The notes below the pieces were generated by a model, which was given only the letters and a program-made list of their open reading frames with translations, made no database searches and had not been told where the DNA came from. DNA of 46,190 nt from Rhodospirillales bacterium. GTDB taxonomy: Bacteria; Pseudomonadota; Alphaproteobacteria; TMED109. Made by a program: the position numbers and the translations under genes. The stretch spans positions 1 to 46,190 of the forward strand of contig VXPW01000065.1 in the NCBI GenBank assembly GCA_009839325.1, written 5' to 3'. How positions within the stretch are numbered: position 1 is the first letter of the stretch; each line of letters starts with the position of its first letter. Shown piece after piece: positions 30,553-41,410 of the stretch.

Positions 30553-31233
30553 TCAGTCGAGGTACCTCTTCCAAATAGGGTTCGACAAGCCTTGAAGCAT
30601 CACGCGGTGTGCTCGCGCTTCTTCCTCGTCGGGCGCATACCGCCGCTCGGGCCAATTCACGTCGGCCGCCGTCTCCGCCTGCAGGCCGGTGGCGGCCGCA
30701 GTGGTATCGAGCAGGAATGACCCCTGACGCCCTCCGGTCATCTCGATGTAGACCTCCGCCAGCAACTGCGCGTCAATCAGGGCGCCGTGTCGGTGGCGAC
30801 GTACCGCAAGGTCGATTCCGTGTCGGCGGCAAAGGTTGTTCAGCGTTACAAATCCACCAGCGAGCTCCATGGTGTCCAGGATTTCCCGACCGGACGACAC
30901 ACCCCCATGGCCCACCCTCGTCAGCTCGGCGTCCAGAAACCCGAGATCGAACGGGGCATTGTGGAAGAGCAGCGGCGATTCCCCCAGGAACTCGACGAAC
31001 TGGTCCGCAATGTCCTCAAATGTCGGCTTGTCGGCCAGGAACTCTTCGGAAAGGCCATGGACTTGCCGAGCTTTCTCGGGAATGTCACGCCTCGGATTCA
31101 CGAACGCATGCCAGGTACGTCCGGTGGGCACGTTGTTGCGCAGTTCGACACAGCCGATTTCCACGACCCGGTGCCCTTCATCCGGACGAAGGCCGGTCGT
31201 TTCCGTATCCACCGCCAGCAGTCGAGCCGTCAT
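30553..31233 (-). CDS. dnaQ: DNA polymerase III subunit epsilon
   Basis: This 226-residue 3'-5' exonuclease proofreads for the replicative polymerase. The DEDDh motifs are all visible: AVDTETTGL at residue 7, HNAPFDLGFLDAEL, and the final HGALIDAQLLAEVYIEM. A C-terminal region of about 50 residues should contact the polymerase alpha subunit. ATG at 31233 is chosen; the frame stays open far upstream through coaE antisense. It lies 43 bases after coaE on the same strand. Confidence 0.95.
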   Translation of the reverse strand: MTARLLAVDTETTGLRPDEGHRVVEIGCVELRNNVPTGRTWHAFVNPRRDIPEKARQVHGLSEEFLADKPTFEDIADQFVEFLGESPLLFHNAPFDLGFLDAELTRVGHGGVSSGREILDTMELAGGFVTLNNLCRRHGIDLAVRRHRHGALIDAQLLAEVYIEMTGGRQGSFLLDTTAAATGLQAETAADVNWPERRYAPDEEEARAHRVMLQGLSNPIWKRYLD

Positions 31234-31276
31234 CGTCGTCCTCCCTGGACCCGAACTCCGGCGGCCGAGCCCGGTC

Positions 31277-31894
31277 TCATCGAATCGGCCTCGGTCGGCC
31301 GGTCCCGCGTGGTCCATGCCGACGGAGGGCGCGGCGGAGCGCCCGCAATGCCACTCGGAGACCCTGCCCGGTTGGAATGACGTCATCGGCCCTTCGTTGC
31401 TGTTCCAACGTCGACATCTGCCGCTCCAGAATTCCGCGCAGCCGGGCTTCATCCATGTTCGGGCGCTGCAGCACCCGCTGACGCTGGAGGAATCTTGGAG
31501 CGGCAACGACCAGCACAGCGTCACAGTGGATGTCTCCACCCGTCTCGAAGAGCAACGGCACGTCAAGCACGACGACAGCGGCCCGGGCCAGCGCCCAGCG
31601 ACGCAACCAGATATTTCGCGCCTGGGCCACATATGGATGCACGATTGCCTCTAGCTGCCTGAGAGCGGCACGGTTAGAGAACACCTGTTGAGCCAGCGCA
31701 GCCCGGTCGATCGCGTTTCCGGTTGCAGCCTCGGGGAAGGCGTCCAGCACAGCAGCCGTGGCCGCTCCGCCCGGAGCCGTAACGCTGCGGGCCACGGCAT
31801 CAGAATCGAATACAGGCACACCGAGACGAGCACAAAGTCCCGCTGTCCGACTCTTTCCCATCGCGACGGTACCTGTGAGTCCAAGAACAACCAC
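31277..31894 (-). CDS. coaE: Dephospho-CoA kinase
   Basis: This 205-residue enzyme makes coenzyme A from dephospho-CoA and ATP. The P-loop is GLTGTVAMGKS at the N-terminus, followed by PVFDSDAVAR, IVHPYV, and VVLDVPLLFETGGD. GTG at 31894 shares its first base with the aroE stop (TAGTG) and puts the P-loop where the family has it. The arginine-rich tail after residue 180 is variable in the family. Confidence 0.95.
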   Translation of the reverse strand: MVVLGLTGTVAMGKSRTAGLCARLGVPVFDSDAVARSVTAPGGAATAAVLDAFPEAATGNAIDRAALAQQVFSNRAALRQLEAIVHPYVAQARNIWLRRWALARAAVVVLDVPLLFETGGDIHCDAVLVVAAPRFLQRQRVLQRPNMDEARLRGILERQMSTLEQQRRADDVIPTGQGLRVALRALRRALRRHGPRGTGRPRPIR

Positions 31895-32757
31895 TACTTC
31901 TCCAGCGTTGCCAGCACATGCTTTCGAAGGTCCTGATCCACTACCGGGCGCACACCGAACCACCCCTCGAAGCCGGGGACAGCCTGATGAAGAAGCATCC
32001 CGAGACCGTCCACGGTTGCCAGTCCCCGACGCGACGCCCCGCGCAGCAAGGCGGTCTCAAGCGGCACGTAAACGATGTCCGCCACGACGGCATCGGCGGC
32101 GAGACCGGCGAGGTCAGGATCCAAGGTCGGACCATTTCCCATTCCGAGTGTCGACGCATTGACCAGCAGGCCCGCGCCAGCCAGTTCAGCTTCGAGCTCG
32201 CGAAGGCCTACCGCGCGCACGCTCTCGAACTGGGCAGCAATTTCCTCGGCCTTCGCCACCGTGCGGTTGGCAATCACGATTTCGTCGCCGTGCTCGGCAC
32301 GCAATCCCGCAACGATCGCGCGTGCAGCTCCACCGGCACCGACCACGACGGCTCGCCGGCCCGACCGGTGCCATTCCGGCCGTTGTTCATGCAGTCCATC
32401 GACAAAGCCGCCCACATCAGTGTTGGCACCGATCAGACGTCCATCCCGTACGAAAATCGTGTTCACGGCCCCTACGGTGCCTGCCAATGCACTTTCCTCA
32501 TCGACGAGTGAGCGCGCTTCCACTTTGTGCGGAACCGTCACATTGCAGCCGCGAAATCCCAGGGCCGGCAAAGCTCGGAGTGCTGTCTCCAGATGTCCCG
32601 GCCGCACCGGCAAGGGTACGTACGCGGCGTCCAGCCTGTGCTTGCGAATCCAGTACGAGTGAATCACGGGAGATAACGAGTGAGCCACCGGCCAACCGAC
32701 GATCCCGGCGAGCCTGGTTCCGGCAGACGAAGGTCCCGCCGAAGCCTGTTCGGTCAT
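31894..32757 (-). CDS. aroE: Shikimate dehydrogenase
   Basis: This 287-residue enzyme reduces 3-dehydroshikimate with NADPH in aromatic amino acid synthesis. The substrate site has GWPVAHSLSPVIHSYW and GCNVTVPHKV with the catalytic lysine. The cofactor loop is VVGAGGAARAIVAGL followed by IANRT, and NTDVGGF and GLGMLLHQA are present. It overlaps ppsR by one base (TGATG) and coaE by one. The maf gene usually found between ppsR and aroE is missing. Confidence 0.96.
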   Translation of the reverse strand: MTEQASAGPSSAGTRLAGIVGWPVAHSLSPVIHSYWIRKHRLDAAYVPLPVRPGHLETALRALPALGFRGCNVTVPHKVEARSLVDEESALAGTVGAVNTIFVRDGRLIGANTDVGGFVDGLHEQRPEWHRSGRRAVVVGAGGAARAIVAGLRAEHGDEIVIANRTVAKAEEIAAQFESVRAVGLRELEAELAGAGLLVNASTLGMGNGPTLDPDLAGLAADAVVADIVYVPLETALLRGASRRGLATVDGLGMLLHQAVPGFEGWFGVRPVVDQDLRKHVLATLEK

Positions 32758-33593
32758 CAGGAGTCCCGCCGCTTGCGCATGAGTTCCAGCACCGACGCCG
32801 ACGTTTCTTCAATCGATCTGCCCGTCACATCGATTGTGGGCCAACCCATGCGGGCGTACATCCGGTTCGCTTCGATGACCTCATCTCGAATGCGAACGCG
32901 GTCGGAATAACTTGCATCGGCTTCGACACCGATGCTCGAAAGCCGGGCACGCCGGAGCACGGACAGCCTGTCGGGAGACGTCGTCAAAGCCACGATCAGC
33001 GCGTTCCCGGTGCCGTCCATGATCCAGCGCGGAAGTTCGATGCCGGGAACCACCGGCACGTTGGCAACGCGAACGCCCCGGTTGGCGAGATACATCGAGG
33101 TTGGCGTCTTCGAAGTTCTTGAAACCCCTACCAGCATCACGTCCGCATCTTCCGCCTGAGCAGCAAGCTGACCATCGTCATGAGTCAGCGCGAACTCCAT
33201 CGCCTGAATCCGTCGAAAGTACTCGCGGTCGATTCGGTGCTGGGAACCTGGCCGGCTGGCAGCCGGTTCCACTCCCAATATCGTGGCCAGGGTGGCGACC
33301 ACGGGATCCAGGATGGCCAGCGCCGGTACCCGCATTCGTCGGCATTCTGTTTCGAACGCAGTGCGGAGTTCGGAATCCGCCAGTGTGTAAAGGGCAATCC
33401 CGCGATGTTTCTCAACTTGCTTCAGAACGCGGTTGAGCTGAGAGCGAGTCCGGACGAGGATTGCGTTGTGCTCCACCGTTTCAACATCCCGGAAGTAGGT
33501 CACGGCGGCGCGGGCGACAGTGCTAACGGTCTCACCTGTGGAATCCGACACGAGATGAATGTGGAAAGGGTTACTGGAAAAAGCCTTACGCAT
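32757..33593 (-). CDS. ppsR: PEP synthase / PPDK regulatory kinase-pyrophosphorylase (DUF299)
   Basis: This 278-residue enzyme reversibly phosphorylates, and so switches off and on, PEP synthase or pyruvate phosphate dikinase using ADP. Typical are FHIHLVSDSTGETVSTVARA at the N-terminus, the P-loop-like LVGVSRTSKTPTSMYLANRG, and MGWPTIDVTGRSIEETSA at the end. In other Alphaproteobacteria this gene stands at the edge of the chromosomal origin, transcribed away from it, and the same holds here. Confidence 0.94.
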   Translation of the reverse strand: MRKAFSSNPFHIHLVSDSTGETVSTVARAAVTYFRDVETVEHNAILVRTRSQLNRVLKQVEKHRGIALYTLADSELRTAFETECRRMRVPALAILDPVVATLATILGVEPAASRPGSQHRIDREYFRRIQAMEFALTHDDGQLAAQAEDADVMLVGVSRTSKTPTSMYLANRGVRVANVPVVPGIELPRWIMDGTGNALIVALTTSPDRLSVLRRARLSSIGVEADASYSDRVRIRDEVIEANRMYARMGWPTIDVTGRSIEETSASVLELMRKRRDS

Positions 33594-33594
33594 C

Positions 33595-33603
33595 TGTGGA
33601 AAA
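33595..33603 (-). promoter_or_regulatory. DnaA-box-like site 1
   Basis: TGTGGAAAA differs from the complement of the TTATCCACA box at one position. It lies one base from the ppsR start codon. Confidence 0.45.
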
Positions 33604-33738
33604 ATTCCGAAGAAAGCCTTGCGTGGTTCCGCCGCCGGATATTCCTCAAACCCCTAAGGGTTCCGCACAGGTTATACGATACGACGGCCAGCCACGATGA
33701 AACCGTGAAAACCCCACCACGACCGATTTCGCACAGTT

Positions 33739-33827
33739 TTCGTCCACTACCCTATGTTCGTCCAACCATCTGCTGGACAATGATTTAGAACGGTTTTCCG
33801 ACCTTTATCCATCAAGATATGATGGAC
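33739..33827. repeat. Short TTCGTCCA / TGGAC repeat family
   Basis: TTCGTCCA occurs at 33739-33746 and 33757-33764, spaced 18 bases. The inverse core TGGAC follows at 33774-33778 and 33823-33827. Four related pentamers within 90 bases, in both orientations, suggest a binding site cluster, though the unit is short. Confidence 0.4.
33805..33813 (+). promoter_or_regulatory. DnaA-box-like site 2
   Basis: TTATCCATC matches 7 of 9 positions of the DnaA box, including the full TTATCCA half, and lies in the AT-rich core. Confidence 0.4.
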
Positions 33828-33909
33828 TGAAATTGTCATCCTGCTCTTTGGAAAAATCCCGCAAAAACACCTGATTCCTGTAACCAACAGACCAACTATA
33901 ATCGATTAC

Positions 33910-33918
33910 TTATACAAA
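33910..33918 (+). promoter_or_regulatory. DnaA-box-like site 3
   Basis: TTATACAAA matches 7 of 9 positions of the DnaA box and lies in the AT-rich core. AT-rich sequence makes chance matches likelier, so this is the weakest of the three. Confidence 0.25.
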
Positions 33919-34273
33919 CTATTTGGTATTTTGATTTGCATCCGGGTTGAAGAACGCATATATCGTGCAGGCGGCATCATCACTGTTCCGGCGCGGGTAT
34001 CCATGATCTGCGAACGCGGCCATCGAGCTGGCGATCGCGTTCGATGGGTGGAGCCCAGGTTGACTCGTTCCGGTGCCTTGGTAGCGTTATCGCCTGCAAG
34101 GCCGGATCCCGTCACGCCGATCGGGCCTGTTTAGCGGCACCTCGGCCCTATTGGTCCGCTTCCGGTTTCCGGGCGAAGCGGCTGGCTACCCGCTTCATCA
34201 TCGGTTGCCACCCCGCAGCCAGCGACACCTTTCTTCTGCTGCTGCCGAATCTCTACGTCATGGGTTATTGATT

Positions 34274-35533
34274 ATGCACCTCCAGGAACTGAAACGTAAA
34301 TCGCCTTCCGATCTCCTTGCATTTGCTGAAACCGAAGGGGTCGAGAACGCCGGTAACCTGCGAAAACAGGACATCATGTATGCGATTTTGCGGGCCAGGG
34401 CGGACCGGGAGGAACCGATCTACGGAGAGGGTGTGATCGAGGTGATGCAGGACGGGTTCGGCTTCTTGCGTTCACCTGAATCCAATTACCTGTCCGGCTC
34501 TGACGACATTTATGTATCACCAGCGCAAATAAAACGTCTCGGTCTTCGAACCGGAGATACAGTTGAGGGAGAGATCAGCCAACCGGGCGAAGGTGAACGC
34601 TACTTCTCTTTGCTCAAACCGACAAAGATCAATTTCAGGACGCCGGAGGAAGTTCGCAGCCGCGTGAATTTCGACAATCTCACGCCTCTTTATCCTGACA
34701 GTGCCATCAAGCTGGAAGTGGAGGCGGGATTGCCGGCGGGGGATAACACGTGCCGGGTTATCGAGCTGGTGGCACCGCTGGGCAAGGGGCAGCGCGGCCT
34801 GATCGTCGCCCCGCCAAGGACCGGGAAGACGGTTGTTCTCCAGAATATTGCCCACGCGATCGAGGAAAACCATCCCGAGATCTATCTGATTGTCCTGCTC
34901 ATCGATGAACGCCCGGAGGAAGTCACCGACATGCGCCGATCCGTTCGGGGAGAGGTCGTCAGTTCCACGTTCGACGAACCGGCGACACGCCATGTTCAGG
35001 TGACCGAGATGGTGAACCGTAAGGCCAAGCGGCTGGTCGAAAACGGTTACGACGTGGTGATTCTGCTGGATTCGATTACGCGTCTGGCACGTGCCTACAA
35101 CACCGTCGTCCCAAGTTCCGGCAAGGTGCTGACCGGCGGGGTGGATTCGAATGCGTTGCAGCGCCCGAAACGGTTCTTTGGGGCAGCCAGGAACATTGAG
35201 GGCGGGGGATCGCTGACCATCATTGCCACTGCCCTGATTGAAACCGGTTCGCGGATGGACGAGGTGATCTTCGAAGAATTCAAGGGCACGGGAAACTCGG
35301 AAATCGTGCTCGACCGGAAACTTGCCGACAAGCGGGTGTTCCCGGCGATCGACATCGCGAAGTCCGGAACACGAAAAGAAGAACTGCTGGTCGAGGCCGA
35401 GGAACTTACGAAGATGTGGGTATTGCGACGAATTCTGTCGCCCATGGGGACATCCGACGCAATGGAATTCCTGTTGGAGAGGCTTCGACCGACCAAGAAC
35501 AATGCCGAATTCTTCGACACAATGAACCAGTAG
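34274..35533 (+). CDS. rho: Transcription termination factor Rho
   Basis: This 419-residue hexameric RNA helicase ends transcription of untranslated RNA. The N-terminal helical part ([20 protein letters not shown]) is followed by the cold-shock RNA-binding domain ([20 protein letters not shown]). The ATPase domain has the P-loop [11 protein letters not shown], Walker [17 protein letters not shown] and the Q- and R-loop segments. The ATG at 34274 gives the family start; an in-frame extension to 34151 is non-homologous. No clear Shine-Dalgarno sequence precedes it. It is the first plus-strand gene right of the putative origin. Confidence 0.98.
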
Positions 35534-35602: not shown

Positions 35603-36580
35603 CTACGGGATCAGGAGCGTTGATCCCGTTGTCTTTCTTCCCTCGAGATCCCGGTGGGCCTGCTGCGCTTCGGCCAATGCATAGCGCTGGTTGATCTCAA
35701 TCCGGACCTGGCCGTTGCCCACGACATCGAACAGGGCAGCGGCGCTGGCTTCCAGGTCTTCGCGCTTCTTCGTGTAGGTCATCAGCGTCGGGCGGGTGAT
35801 GAAGTTGGAACCGGCAGCCAGGACCGCAAGATTGATCGGGTCGGTTGGGCCGGAGGACTGCCCGAATAGCACCACCATGCCATGCATCGCGAGACACTGA
35901 ATGGATTTGGCAAGCGTTGTCTTTCCGATGCTGTCGTAGACGACCGGAACACCCTCACCGTCGGTGATGTTCTTGACTTCCTCGACCCAGTCCACCTGAT
36001 CAAAAAGGATCGGGTAGTCGCACCCGTGGGCGCGCGCCAGCTCCGCTTTTTCCTCCGTACCGACAGTACCGATCACCGTAGCGCCAAGCGCCTTCAGCCA
36101 TTGGCACGCAATCAAGCCAACGCCTCCGGCCGCAGAGTGGAACAACACAGTCATTCCCGGCTCGACACGAAATGTCCGCCGCAGCAAGTACTCGGCGGTC
36201 ATCCCCTTCAGCATCATGGCGGCGGCTTGTTCGTCGGTCACGGAATCCGGGACCCTGACCACCCGGTCGCCGGGCATCCGGCGGGTTTGGCTGTAAGCAC
36301 CGGGAGGAGGAGAGGCATAGGCGACCCGATCACCGGCGCTAAGTCCTGTGACGCCCGGGCCGAGCTCTTCAACCACGCCGGCAGCCTCGAGACCGATAGG
36401 CCGCGGCAGGTCCGGTAACGGATAGATGCCCGAGCGCATGTAGGTGTCGATGAAATTGAGGCCAACGGCGGTGTGACGGACCCGAACCTCGCCTTCCTGC
36501 AGGTCCCCCACGGGATATTCCTCCCACTGAAGTACCTCTGGTCCTCCCTGTTCGTGAATGCAGACGGCCATATTGGTCAT
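35603..36580 (-). CDS. NADPH:quinone oxidoreductase, zinc-independent MDR family
   Basis: This 325-residue cytosolic enzyme reduces quinones with NADPH by one or two electrons. Seen are VGLNFIDTYMRSGIYP, PIGLEAAGVVEELGPGV, the dinucleotide site VLFHSAAGGVGLIACQWLKALGA, and the closing GRKTTGSTLLIP. The zinc ligands of alcohol dehydrogenases are absent. It follows the dienelactone hydrolase gene with a four-base overlap, so the two form an operon. Confidence 0.93.
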   Translation of the reverse strand: MTNMAVCIHEQGGPEVLQWEEYPVGDLQEGEVRVRHTAVGLNFIDTYMRSGIYPLPDLPRPIGLEAAGVVEELGPGVTGLSAGDRVAYASPPPGAYSQTRRMPGDRVVRVPDSVTDEQAAAMMLKGMTAEYLLRRTFRVEPGMTVLFHSAAGGVGLIACQWLKALGATVIGTVGTEEKAELARAHGCDYPILFDQVDWVEEVKNITDGEGVPVVYDSIGKTTLAKSIQCLAMHGMVVLFGQSSGPTDPINLAVLAAGSNFITRPTLMTYTKKREDLEASAAALFDVVGNGQVRIEINQRYALAEAQQAHRDLEGRKTTGSTLLIP

Positions 36581-37317
36581 TCGGAGTTCTCCGGTGCGGC
36601 AAAAACTCTTGGCTTGGGACGAAGGTAAGTGTTCAGATGCGAGAGGGTTCGCTCGTCAGCGAGCGCGGCTGCCTCGCGGTCGTAGTGTTCGCCGCCGGGG
36701 CGTGCGAACGCGTGGTTGCAACCGGGGTAGGTCTCCACGGTGACCTTCGGATGTTCATCGAGCGCCTCGTGGATCTGCTTTTGCGCTTCCGGGGGGCAGT
36801 ATTCATCCTCGGTCGCGACGTGGAGCAGCAGTGGACCACGAATCATGCGCGCCTGGTTCAAGGCGGTTTCGATTCCGACCCCGTAGTAACCGACGGCAGC
36901 CTCGATATCCAGCCCGCAAGCAGCGAGATAGGAGAGTTTCCCGCCGAGACAGAAACCCAACGTCGCGGACGCGCCAGTGCACTCGTCTTGATGTCGGAGC
37001 CAACGGAGGGTCATGGCGACGTCTTCGAATCCCTTGGTCTCGTCGAACCCCTTGTAGAGTTCAAATGCGCGGGCCCATTCGTCCTCGGATTGGTCCGTGA
37101 TCTCAACCTCCGGCTCTTGCCGCCAGAACAGGTCTGGCACTGCTACCGCGAATCCGAGCGCGGCATATTGCTCGGCAACTGCTCGCATGACCGGATTGAT
37201 TCCGAAGATTTCTTGGATGACGACAATGCCAGGCGAAACTTTGCCGGGAGGAGCGGTGAAATAGGCGGTGAATTCCTCACCCTCGCGGGAGGGAATACGC
37301 ACGTAGCGGGAAGGCAT
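36577..37317 (-). CDS. Dienelactone hydrolase family protein
   Basis: This 246-residue alpha/beta hydrolase has the DLH catalytic triad: cysteine in LGFCLGGKLSY near residue 122, aspartate-type acid in VATEDEYCPP, and histidine in GCNHAFARPG. The opening IVVIQEIFGINPVMRAVAE is also typical. Classical members open dienelactone in chloroaromatic breakdown, but many are general carboxylesterases, and no other aromatic-degradation gene is near. It is co-transcribed with the quinone oxidoreductase. Confidence 0.9.
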   Translation of the reverse strand: MPSRYVRIPSREGEEFTAYFTAPPGKVSPGIVVIQEIFGINPVMRAVAEQYAALGFAVAVPDLFWRQEPEVEITDQSEDEWARAFELYKGFDETKGFEDVAMTLRWLRHQDECTGASATLGFCLGGKLSYLAACGLDIEAAVGYYGVGIETALNQARMIRGPLLLHVATEDEYCPPEAQKQIHEALDEHPKVTVETYPGCNHAFARPGGEHYDREAAALADERTLSHLNTYLRPKPRVFAAPENSE

Positions 37318-37407
37318 GGACGGTTTCCTGATCGGGAAGCCAGAAGGGCGCGCAACCTACCGCAGAATTGGCGCTGCCGCACCTTGGAGGCGCGGAGACC
37401 GGTCAGG

Positions 37408-39432
<2,025 letters not shown>

Positions 39433-40090: not shown

Positions 40091-41410
40091 TTGGCGGGAG
40101 ACACGATTGTTGCTCCGGCGAGCGGCCCTCCACCGAGCGCCATCTGCATCATCCGCATTTCGGGTCCGGCCACCAAGGCAGCGCTGCACCGCCTGTGCGG
40201 CAAGGAGCTTTGTCCGCGCCGCCTGGCCCGCGTCACGTTGCGGGAAACGGACCGGACCGTGCCCCTTGACGAGGGGCTCGCCGTGTATTTTCCAGGCCCC
40301 GACAGCTTCACGGGCGAGGATGTCGGCGAACTGCATGTTCATGGAAGCCGGGCCGTCATCGACGGGGTGATCGACGAGCTCTGCCGGCTGCCCGGCGTTC
40401 GACCGGCCGACCCCGGTGAGTTTTCGCGAAGAGCCTTCGCGAACGGCAAACTCGATCTCATCCAGGCCGAAGGGATTGCCGACCTGGTGGCTGCGGAGAC
40501 CCGCTTCCAGCGCATCCAGGCGGTTCGTCAGGTTCAGGGCGGCTTGAGCGAGCTCTACGATTCGTGGCGTTCCCGGGCAATCGAGTGCCTGGCTGAAGCG
40601 GAAGCCTCCCTCGACTTCATCGACGAAGCCGATGTGGGGTCGGTGCCGCTACAACCGGGCAAGGCGCAGGCCCTTGCCCATGACATCACGGCACACCTCG
40701 ACGACGGCCGTCGCGGAGAGCGGTTGCGGGAAGGATTTCAGGTCGCCGTGCTCGGCCCCCCCAATTCAGGGAAGTCCAGTTTGGTGAACTTGTTGGCACG
40801 GCGGGAGGCGGCGATCGTTTCCTCCACCGCAGGCACGACACGCGACATCATCGAAGTGCACATGAACCTTGGGGGGTGGCCGGTAACCCTTGCCGACACC
40901 GCCGGAATCCGAAAGTCGGGCGACTCGATCGAGCGTGAGGGCATCCGGCGGGCACTGAATTGGGCCGAGCAGGCGGACGTGACGTTGATTCTGGGCGATC
41001 TTTCCACCGGGGAGAAGCCGCAGTTCGAATTTACGCTAGCGCGATCGGTGCAGGTGTGGAACAAGTCGGATCTCCGTTCGCCGCTTCGGGATCCGCGCGT
41101 CCAGCCCGGCGATTTCACGATCTCCTGCCGTACCGGCAGCGGCATCGACACGCTGCTGGACGGGTTGGAAGCGGCGGTCGCCGTGGTAGGCGGTCATCCG
41201 GAGGAAGGATTGGCCCTCACGCGCGTGCGGCACCGCGAAGCGCTGAAGCGGGCGGCCGATGCGCTACGGAATGTCCAGCACTCGGTTTCCGCGGAATTGG
41301 CCGCGGAAGAGTTGCGTGCCGCGGTGCATGCGCTGGGCCGGATCACTGGCCGCGTCGACGTAGAAGACGTGCTTGACAGGGTATTTTCCAACTTCTGCAT
41401 CGGAAAATAG
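40091..41410 (+). CDS. mnmE: tRNA uridine-5-carboxymethylaminomethyl modification GTPase MnmE
   Basis: This 439-residue GTPase works with MnmG (GidA) to modify U34 of tRNAs. The N-terminal folate-binding domain has ICIIRISGP and SFTGEDVGELHVHGS. The G domain has the P-loop GPPNSGKSSLVNLL, SSTAGTTRD, ADTAG and VWNKSD. The C-terminus carries the catalytic-cysteine ending FCIGK. Start is TTG at 40091. In most Alphaproteobacteria mnmG and rsmG follow it and then parAB; here an ABC importer operon follows instead. Confidence 0.97.
   Translation: MAGDTIVAPASGPPPSAICIIRISGPATKAALHRLCGKELCPRRLARVTLRETDRTVPLDEGLAVYFPGPDSFTGEDVGELHVHGSRAVIDGVIDELCRLPGVRPADPGEFSRRAFANGKLDLIQAEGIADLVAAETRFQRIQAVRQVQGGLSELYDSWRSRAIECLAEAEASLDFIDEADVGSVPLQPGKAQALAHDITAHLDDGRRGERLREGFQVAVLGPPNSGKSSLVNLLARREAAIVSSTAGTTRDIIEVHMNLGGWPVTLADTAGIRKSGDSIEREGIRRALNWAEQADVTLILGDLSTGEKPQFEFTLARSVQVWNKSDLRSPLRDPRVQPGDFTISCRTGSGIDTLLDGLEAAVAVVGGHPEEGLALTRVRHREALKRAADALRNVQHSVSAELAAEELRAAVHALGRITGRVDVEDVLDRVFSNFCIGK

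Follow-up and report, generated by a model that had tools for sequence, protein, structure and literature searches.

The replication origin of Caulobacter crescentus (Cori) lies between hemE and CC0001, a COG1806 gene equivalent to ppsR, according to the excerpted text of PMC1914354. The same excerpt lists the origins of E. ruminantium and one Wolbachia strain as lacking CtrA sites (PMC1914354). hemE is one of the indicator genes for locating oriC in the excerpts of two further sources (PMC2275245, PMC4741004), and the DnaA-trio element of the basal unwinding system is presented as a feature of bacterial oriC in an excerpt of PMC10225481.

In the DNA analysed here (the window, i.e. bases 1-46190 of the 136,814-nt contig C5 from G000, a draft genome of 2.73 Mb in 111 contigs), a gene-free interval of 680 nt separates ppsR from rho. 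This interval is very likely the chromosomal replication origin. We assign it with high confidence to the known type in which oriC lies between ppsR and hemE, the right flank having probably changed after a heme cluster elsewhere took over.

The ppsR-rho interval and its flanking genes

The start codon of ppsR, on the minus strand, ends at 33593 and the ATG of rho, on the plus strand, is at 34274. Both starts were conserved across six aligned genomes of the genus, in agreement with the original prediction of a 680-base gap without genes between divergent ppsR and rho. An in-frame TTG at 34151 could in principle give rho a longer start, but relatives do not share it: in G004 and G006 the frame is no more than 427 codons long. 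A seventh genome, G003, was left out of the alignment as its gap is split over two contigs. The genus (G000-G006) has contigs of ~66% GC and genomes of 2.5-3.8 Mb, and is placed in the same family as other genera with a GC content of 24-29% at the ppsR locus and genomes of 0.8-1.7 Mb (L011, L014-L017, L020, L031-L033).

To the left of the gap, the minus strand carries ppsR, aroE, coaE, dnaQ, a Tim44-type gene and an mltA-type gene; to the right are rho, three minus-strand genes and mnmE, with mnmG farther on at C5:49793-51721 (Table 1). The expectation that genes on either side point away from the gap held for ppsR-aroE-coaE-dnaQ and for rho, but not for the three genes past rho (35603-39432), which point toward it. 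No tRNA genes were found within the window, and an Rfam search over 33000-35000 gave no match in the gap and a single sub-threshold, implausible match inside ppsR.

Table 1. Features of the ppsR-rho locus and the heme cluster (window positions unless a contig or locus is named)
Feature	Position	Strand	Evidence
Proposed oriC-bearing intergenic region	33594..34273	.	gene-free; skew minimum on 6/6 contigs; GC minimum of contig
ppsR (kinase-pyrophosphorylase), left flank	32757..33593	-	PF03618, 1.8e-85; NF003742 match
aroE	31894..32757	-	
coaE, ORF taken from the list; start overlaps aroE	31277..31963	-	PF01121, 5.5e-39
dnaQ, ORF as listed; match starts at residue 137	30553..31632	-	
rho, right flank in the place of hemE	34274..35533	+	NF006886, 670.9 bits; start by conservation
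mnmE	40091..41410	+	
DnaA box TTTTCCACA (exact match), separated by one base from the ppsR start codon	33595..33603	-	
Invariant CGCACAGGTTATACGA block; may serve as a ppsR promoter or protein site	33664..33679	.	invariant in 6/6 aligned genomes
DnaA-like site TTTCGCACA, one mismatch; G006 has an exact TTTTCCACA at this alignment position	33727..33735	+	
AT-rich core, candidate duplex unwinding element	33783..33962	.	36.7% GC, lowest 180-nt window of contig
Weak DnaA-like site TTATCCATC; G005 has an exact TTATCCACA at this alignment position	33805..33813	+	
DnaA-like site TTTTCCAAA, one mismatch, within direct repeat D1	33847..33855	-	
DnaA-like site TTATACAAA, one mismatch, within the AT-rich core	33910..33918	+	
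Promoter-like TTGCAT-N17-TATATC toward rho, edge of AT-rich core	33936..33964	+	by eye, six-genome alignment
Promoter-like TTGACT-N16-TAGCGT block before rho	34060..34087	+	most conserved 40-nt bin of right half; promoter by eye
Heme cluster	L146:4456-10675 (G001:C36); L147:4411-11638 (G002:C21); G000:C43:22740-25594		

Strand asymmetry switches at the interval

Skew was examined on the six contigs that hold the whole gap (119-440 kb as fetched), which come from six draft genomes of related species and are therefore not independent samples. Cumulative G-C was lowest 387-402 nt to the right of the gap-centre reference point on all six contigs, with skews of -0.022 to -0.036 on the ppsR side and +0.019 to +0.027 on the rho side. 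The two contigs of G003 that end in the gap showed the expected signs. A skew minimum had been proposed as a check on the origin, and it was located at the gap on every contig, these being contigs and not whole chromosomes. In the window the minimum fell at 34333, just inside rho, so the switch is placed to about a kilobase and not to the core.

A complete chromosome of the class with hemE beside ppsR (G036, sampled as 20 stretches) served as a control. Skew was positive past the ppsR-hemE gap in 9/9 samples to 1.50 Mb and negative in 11/11 samples from 1.68 Mb to the gap, with a second sign change between 1.50 and 1.68 Mb.

The genes adjoining the gap diverge, as would be expected if the switch arose from gene orientation or marked an inversion boundary instead of a replication origin. 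For 844 ORFs split by side and strand (called by codon-position GC and uncurated), coding-strand GC3 skew to the left of the gap was -0.013 for leading (241 ORFs) and -0.101 for lagging (196 ORFs) genes, and to the right -0.026 (218 ORFs) and -0.099 (189 ORFs), respectively. Leading and lagging genes thus differ by 0.07-0.09 on both sides, indicating that the flip in asymmetry is not a by-product of gene direction. The same switch also recurs in six genomes over stretches of up to 440 kb, and an explanation from orientation or inversion is largely refuted and in our view extremely unlikely.

The AT-rich core is the GC minimum of the contig

The original prediction of a 180-base core of 37% GC was accurate (Table 1), and the GC content of this core contrasts with 65.9% for contig C5 as a whole. 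Among 13,525 windows sampled on C5, none outside the gap had so low a GC content, and all 15 of the lowest-GC 100-nt windows of C5 fall inside it. In four of six genomes, no 100-nt window of the contig was below the lowest of the gap, the exceptions being G002 (three windows) and G006 (two windows). The low GC of the core was kept in all six genomes; its sequence was only moderately conserved in the genus. Conservation in relatives applies to AT-rich composition and to the ppsR-proximal DnaA box, and only in moderate degree to the core sequence itself.

The right part of the gap has 62% GC, and a GC-rich block before rho (34049-34241) still matches across the genus and may be a rho leader. The split in G003 separates the AT-rich core from the block preceding rho. 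Its position suggests an origin proper to the left of ~33985 and a right part that belongs to rho. The two gap ends of this genome carry the same 23-nt sequence in opposite orientation beside an 8-nt direct repeat (L041:1889-1950, L037:1789-1848), the pattern of a transposon that probably sits between the origin core and rho.

DnaA boxes and other sites in the gap

The gap was predicted to contain sites resembling DnaA boxes, and one exact and three one-mismatch sites were found, i.e. four as compared to 0.9 expected from 40 shuffles. The pattern TTWTNCACA occurs exactly once on the 136.8-kb contig C5, beside the ppsR start codon. One exact box was matched by 20/500 shuffles and is modest evidence alone, but it carries weight because it is also present in relatives, the ppsR-proximal box being exact in 7/7 genomes of the genus (six aligned and the G003 contig end). 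Between one and two exact boxes were observed per gap across six genomes, counts that were reached in 1 to 28 of 500 shuffles and that give moderate support for any single gap. On the six contigs together (1.33 Mb), 8/17 exact matches lie in the gaps (4.1 kb), where 0.05 would be expected by length. Genome-wide, G000 has 14 exact boxes, below the number for a reversed control pattern (31).

Direct repeats exist as predicted, although as short families of two or three copies that have little weight, apart from D1, which is a pair of DnaA-like sites. CtrA-type sites (TTAA-N7-TTAA) were absent from the six gaps at one mismatch or fewer, and IHF sites were sporadic, with an exact site in 1/6 gaps and 0-2 per gap at one mismatch. 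CTA/CAA-type runs, as in a DnaA-trio, were seen by eye in relatives but could not be clearly made out in this genus. None of the profile HMMs made from the hemE-proximal origin core of 17, 8 or 9 relatives matched a gap of the six contigs, and a likeness of the gap to the origin cores of relatives that had been noted by eye was dropped for this reason.

Several of these observations would suit a gap that serves just as a common promoter and leader region for the divergent genes ppsR and rho, with the true origin at another intergenic site within a few kb: two promoter-like blocks face rho and an invariant block precedes ppsR, the right half is GC-rich and conserved like a leader, and the skew minimum is no sharper than about a kilobase. 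This arrangement is improbable, as the lowest GC of the contig and its only exact DnaA box are both in this gap, so that none of the 35 other gaps of at least 150 nt has an exact box. Folding of the rho leader RNA was likewise not unusual (z -0.28). Moreover, the excerpt of PMC1914354 places the origin in the gap beside ppsR, by experiment in Caulobacter and by prediction in Rickettsia.

A parS site lies 17.5 kb from the gap

An exact parS core occurs once in the G000 genome, at C5:51750, just behind mnmG and 17.5 kb from the gap; at three mismatches, the window itself contained no match. Two exact parS sites were present on the ppsR or rho contig in all six remaining genomes of the genus. In G002 exact sites flank an mnmG-sized ORF on either side, and G001 has three further exact sites on another contig. 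No ParA or ParB was detected among eight scanned ORFs near parS, a region with 100-N scaffold gaps nearby in G000. An HslU/HslV-like pair (AAA_2 and proteasome-family genes by Pfam) was observed 3-5 kb from parS (L056:15064-16937).

hemE is absent from the flank of the proposed origin in this genus

The prediction that hemE is missing beside the gap proved correct: it adjoins ppsR in 0/7 genomes of the genus and sits on another contig in 7/7. Across the rest of the family (21 genomes searched), hemE was within ~310 nt of ppsR in 14/14 genomes with a ppsR match, and in a class sample (33 searched) the two genes adjoin in 12/15 genomes with ppsR. In the relative G010, the order is ppsR, gap, hemE, ferrochelatase, a flavodoxin-type gene and rho.

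Two genomes of the wider sample were considered as parallel cases. G031 was rejected as a second hemE-less origin and became a negative control. On its contig C15 (L140:8000-14400) the order is ppsR, ferrochelatase, a UPF0093 gene and rho, so that ppsR and rho are 2 kb apart without hemE, but there is no skew switch; skew is positive on both sides and the maximum lies ~15 kb away. In this lineage the origin seems to have relocated, and synteny alone would mislead, since G031 keeps ppsR-rho without hemE and yet lacks the skew minimum. No claim is made for G037, which has a PF06778 match and hemE and ppsR on different contigs, because it also carries HemF and another ORF directly before ppsR.

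By analogy with G031, where hemE is also gone and no skew minimum is seen at ppsR-rho, the origin of the present genus could have moved with hemE or to another site, e.g. the contig of dnaA (match from C55:804 onward in G000) or C49:95094-95312, where three exact DnaA boxes occur within 219 nt. The clear skew switch at the ppsR-rho gap speaks against such a move, as does the absence of any exact box from the fetched hemE and dnaA stretches. The 90-100 kb region of C49 shows no change in the sign of skew, both bins being negative, and hemE of the genus stands apart from the origin-linked copies of this gene in relatives. We regard a moved origin as very unlikely. The boxes on C49 are intergenic and precede a UvrC-like ORF (named by eye); they could serve to titrate DnaA or be part of a promoter under DnaA control.

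A probable coproporphyrin-type heme cluster elsewhere

The coproporphyrin-dependent pathway of heme synthesis is defined by HemQ/ChdC, a CpfC-type ferrochelatase, an FAD oxidase and a lack of HemF. Read gene by gene, the hemE-bearing cluster of G002 has the order hemC, hemD, hemB, hemE, HemQ-like gene, ferrochelatase and FAD oxidase, followed by a TonB receptor; in G001 the cluster was read from hemD to the FAD oxidase. By coordinates, hemE, the HemQ-like gene and ferrochelatase are neighbours in 7/7 genomes of the genus.

The HemQ-like gene was found in 7/7 genomes of the genus, 0/21 of the rest of the family and 1/33 of the class sample. Its Pfam match runs from ~91 to 188 of the 189 profile positions, the second half alone, and NCBIfam gave no match at 1e-8; with just half of the Pfam profile matched, the role of the protein is uncertain. 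A search of plasmids with this protein gave no match. HemF showed the reverse distribution, with matches in 0/7 genomes of the genus, 16/21 of the rest of the family (several of these genomes being incomplete) and 25/33 of the class sample. A single ferrochelatase match was found per genome of the genus, always within the heme cluster; its best PDB match is the coproporphyrin III ferrochelatase 28wn, and a cluster neighbour belongs to the flavin amine-oxidase family.

Trees were generated for hemE (10 alphaproteobacterial rows, five of the genus and eight others) and ferrochelatase (14 alphaproteobacterial rows, five of the genus and six others, with G028, G039 and G043 left out), the genus being represented in both by G000, G001, G002, G004 and G005. 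Both trees are small and unrooted, and several long or compositionally odd rows were flagged. The ferrochelatase of the genus grouped with the three actinobacteria used at 100/99, apart from the 14 alphaproteobacterial rows, and did so with and without G028, G039 and G043. Support of 100/100 separated the hemE of the genus from the full set of 10 alphaproteobacterial rows, and its closest relative is uncertain.

Judged from gene content, a coproporphyrin-dependent heme pathway is probable in this alphaproteobacterial genus. It has probably taken the place of the hemE-hemH-hemG block at the origin; loss of this block after the heme cluster elsewhere took over would have brought rho up against oriC. 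The likeliest order would be gain of the coproporphyrin-type cluster followed by loss of the old block at the origin. We lean towards a fuller scenario, in which hemE-hemH-hemG was deleted as redundant once an actinobacterial-type cluster had been gained, transcription at the right edge passed from hemE to rho, and the dose of rho became coupled to the origin.

Discussion

The reading of the ppsR-rho gap as a hemE-less alphaproteobacterial origin is supported by the skew, the AT-rich core, the conserved DnaA box and the presence of hemE elsewhere. At such an origin, DnaA would bind the conserved TTTTCCACA box by ppsR together with weaker boxes in the left and middle parts of the gap, and a DnaA filament would open the AT-rich core. 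Two forks would then leave, one via ppsR-aroE-coaE-dnaQ and the other via rho, mnmE and mnmG, and parS, 17.5 kb off, would mark the copied origin for segregation. The hemE-hemH-hemG block, which follows the gap in relatives, would have been lost once the coproporphyrin-type cluster elsewhere had taken over.

What is new is the change of flank and its probable cause; the origin itself is as one would predict. The genus separates what an alphaproteobacterial origin may need (a box on the ppsR side, an AT-rich core and a strand switch) from hemE as a mere companion. As hemE is used as an oriC indicator, a search keyed to this gene would pick the wrong contig in this genus. The change of flank is tied to a likely replacement of the heme pathway, which makes it testable by comparison. 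If this is true, an origin landmark was lost through a swap of metabolic pathways and not through a change of origin, and the dose and expression of rho, an essential transcription terminator, are coupled to the origin.

At Caulobacter Cori, transcription that enters from hemE is of importance, and the order aroE-coaE-dnaQ is presumably shared between the Cori flank and this locus. Among the literature matches listed, no description of a ppsR-rho origin without hemE was found. The Caulobacter origin resembles this one in its ppsR-type flank (COG1806, DUF299), AT-rich region and DnaA boxes, as given in the excerpt of PMC1914354, and in having parS near the origin, within 8 kb in Caulobacter by the excerpt of PMC4468827. 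In contrast to Cori, hemE is absent here with rho on its side, no CtrA sites were found and exact DnaA boxes are few. The origins of Rickettsia between hemE and COG1806 have the same COG1806 flank, with gaps of 383-396 nt in the excerpt of PMC1914354; hemE is kept there, whereas the gap described here is 680 nt long and lies in a GC-rich genome. One flank is likewise rearranged in the predicted origins of Wolbachia, Ehrlichia and Anaplasma (between COG1253 and hemE) and Neorickettsia (between hemE and a phage gene) that the same excerpt describes (PMC1914354). As origin flanks vary in this way, at least within the excerpted text (PMC1914354), the absence of hemE identifies a variant and is compatible with an origin. 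Those lineages lost the COG1806 side and kept hemE; in the present genus hemE was lost and ppsR was kept.
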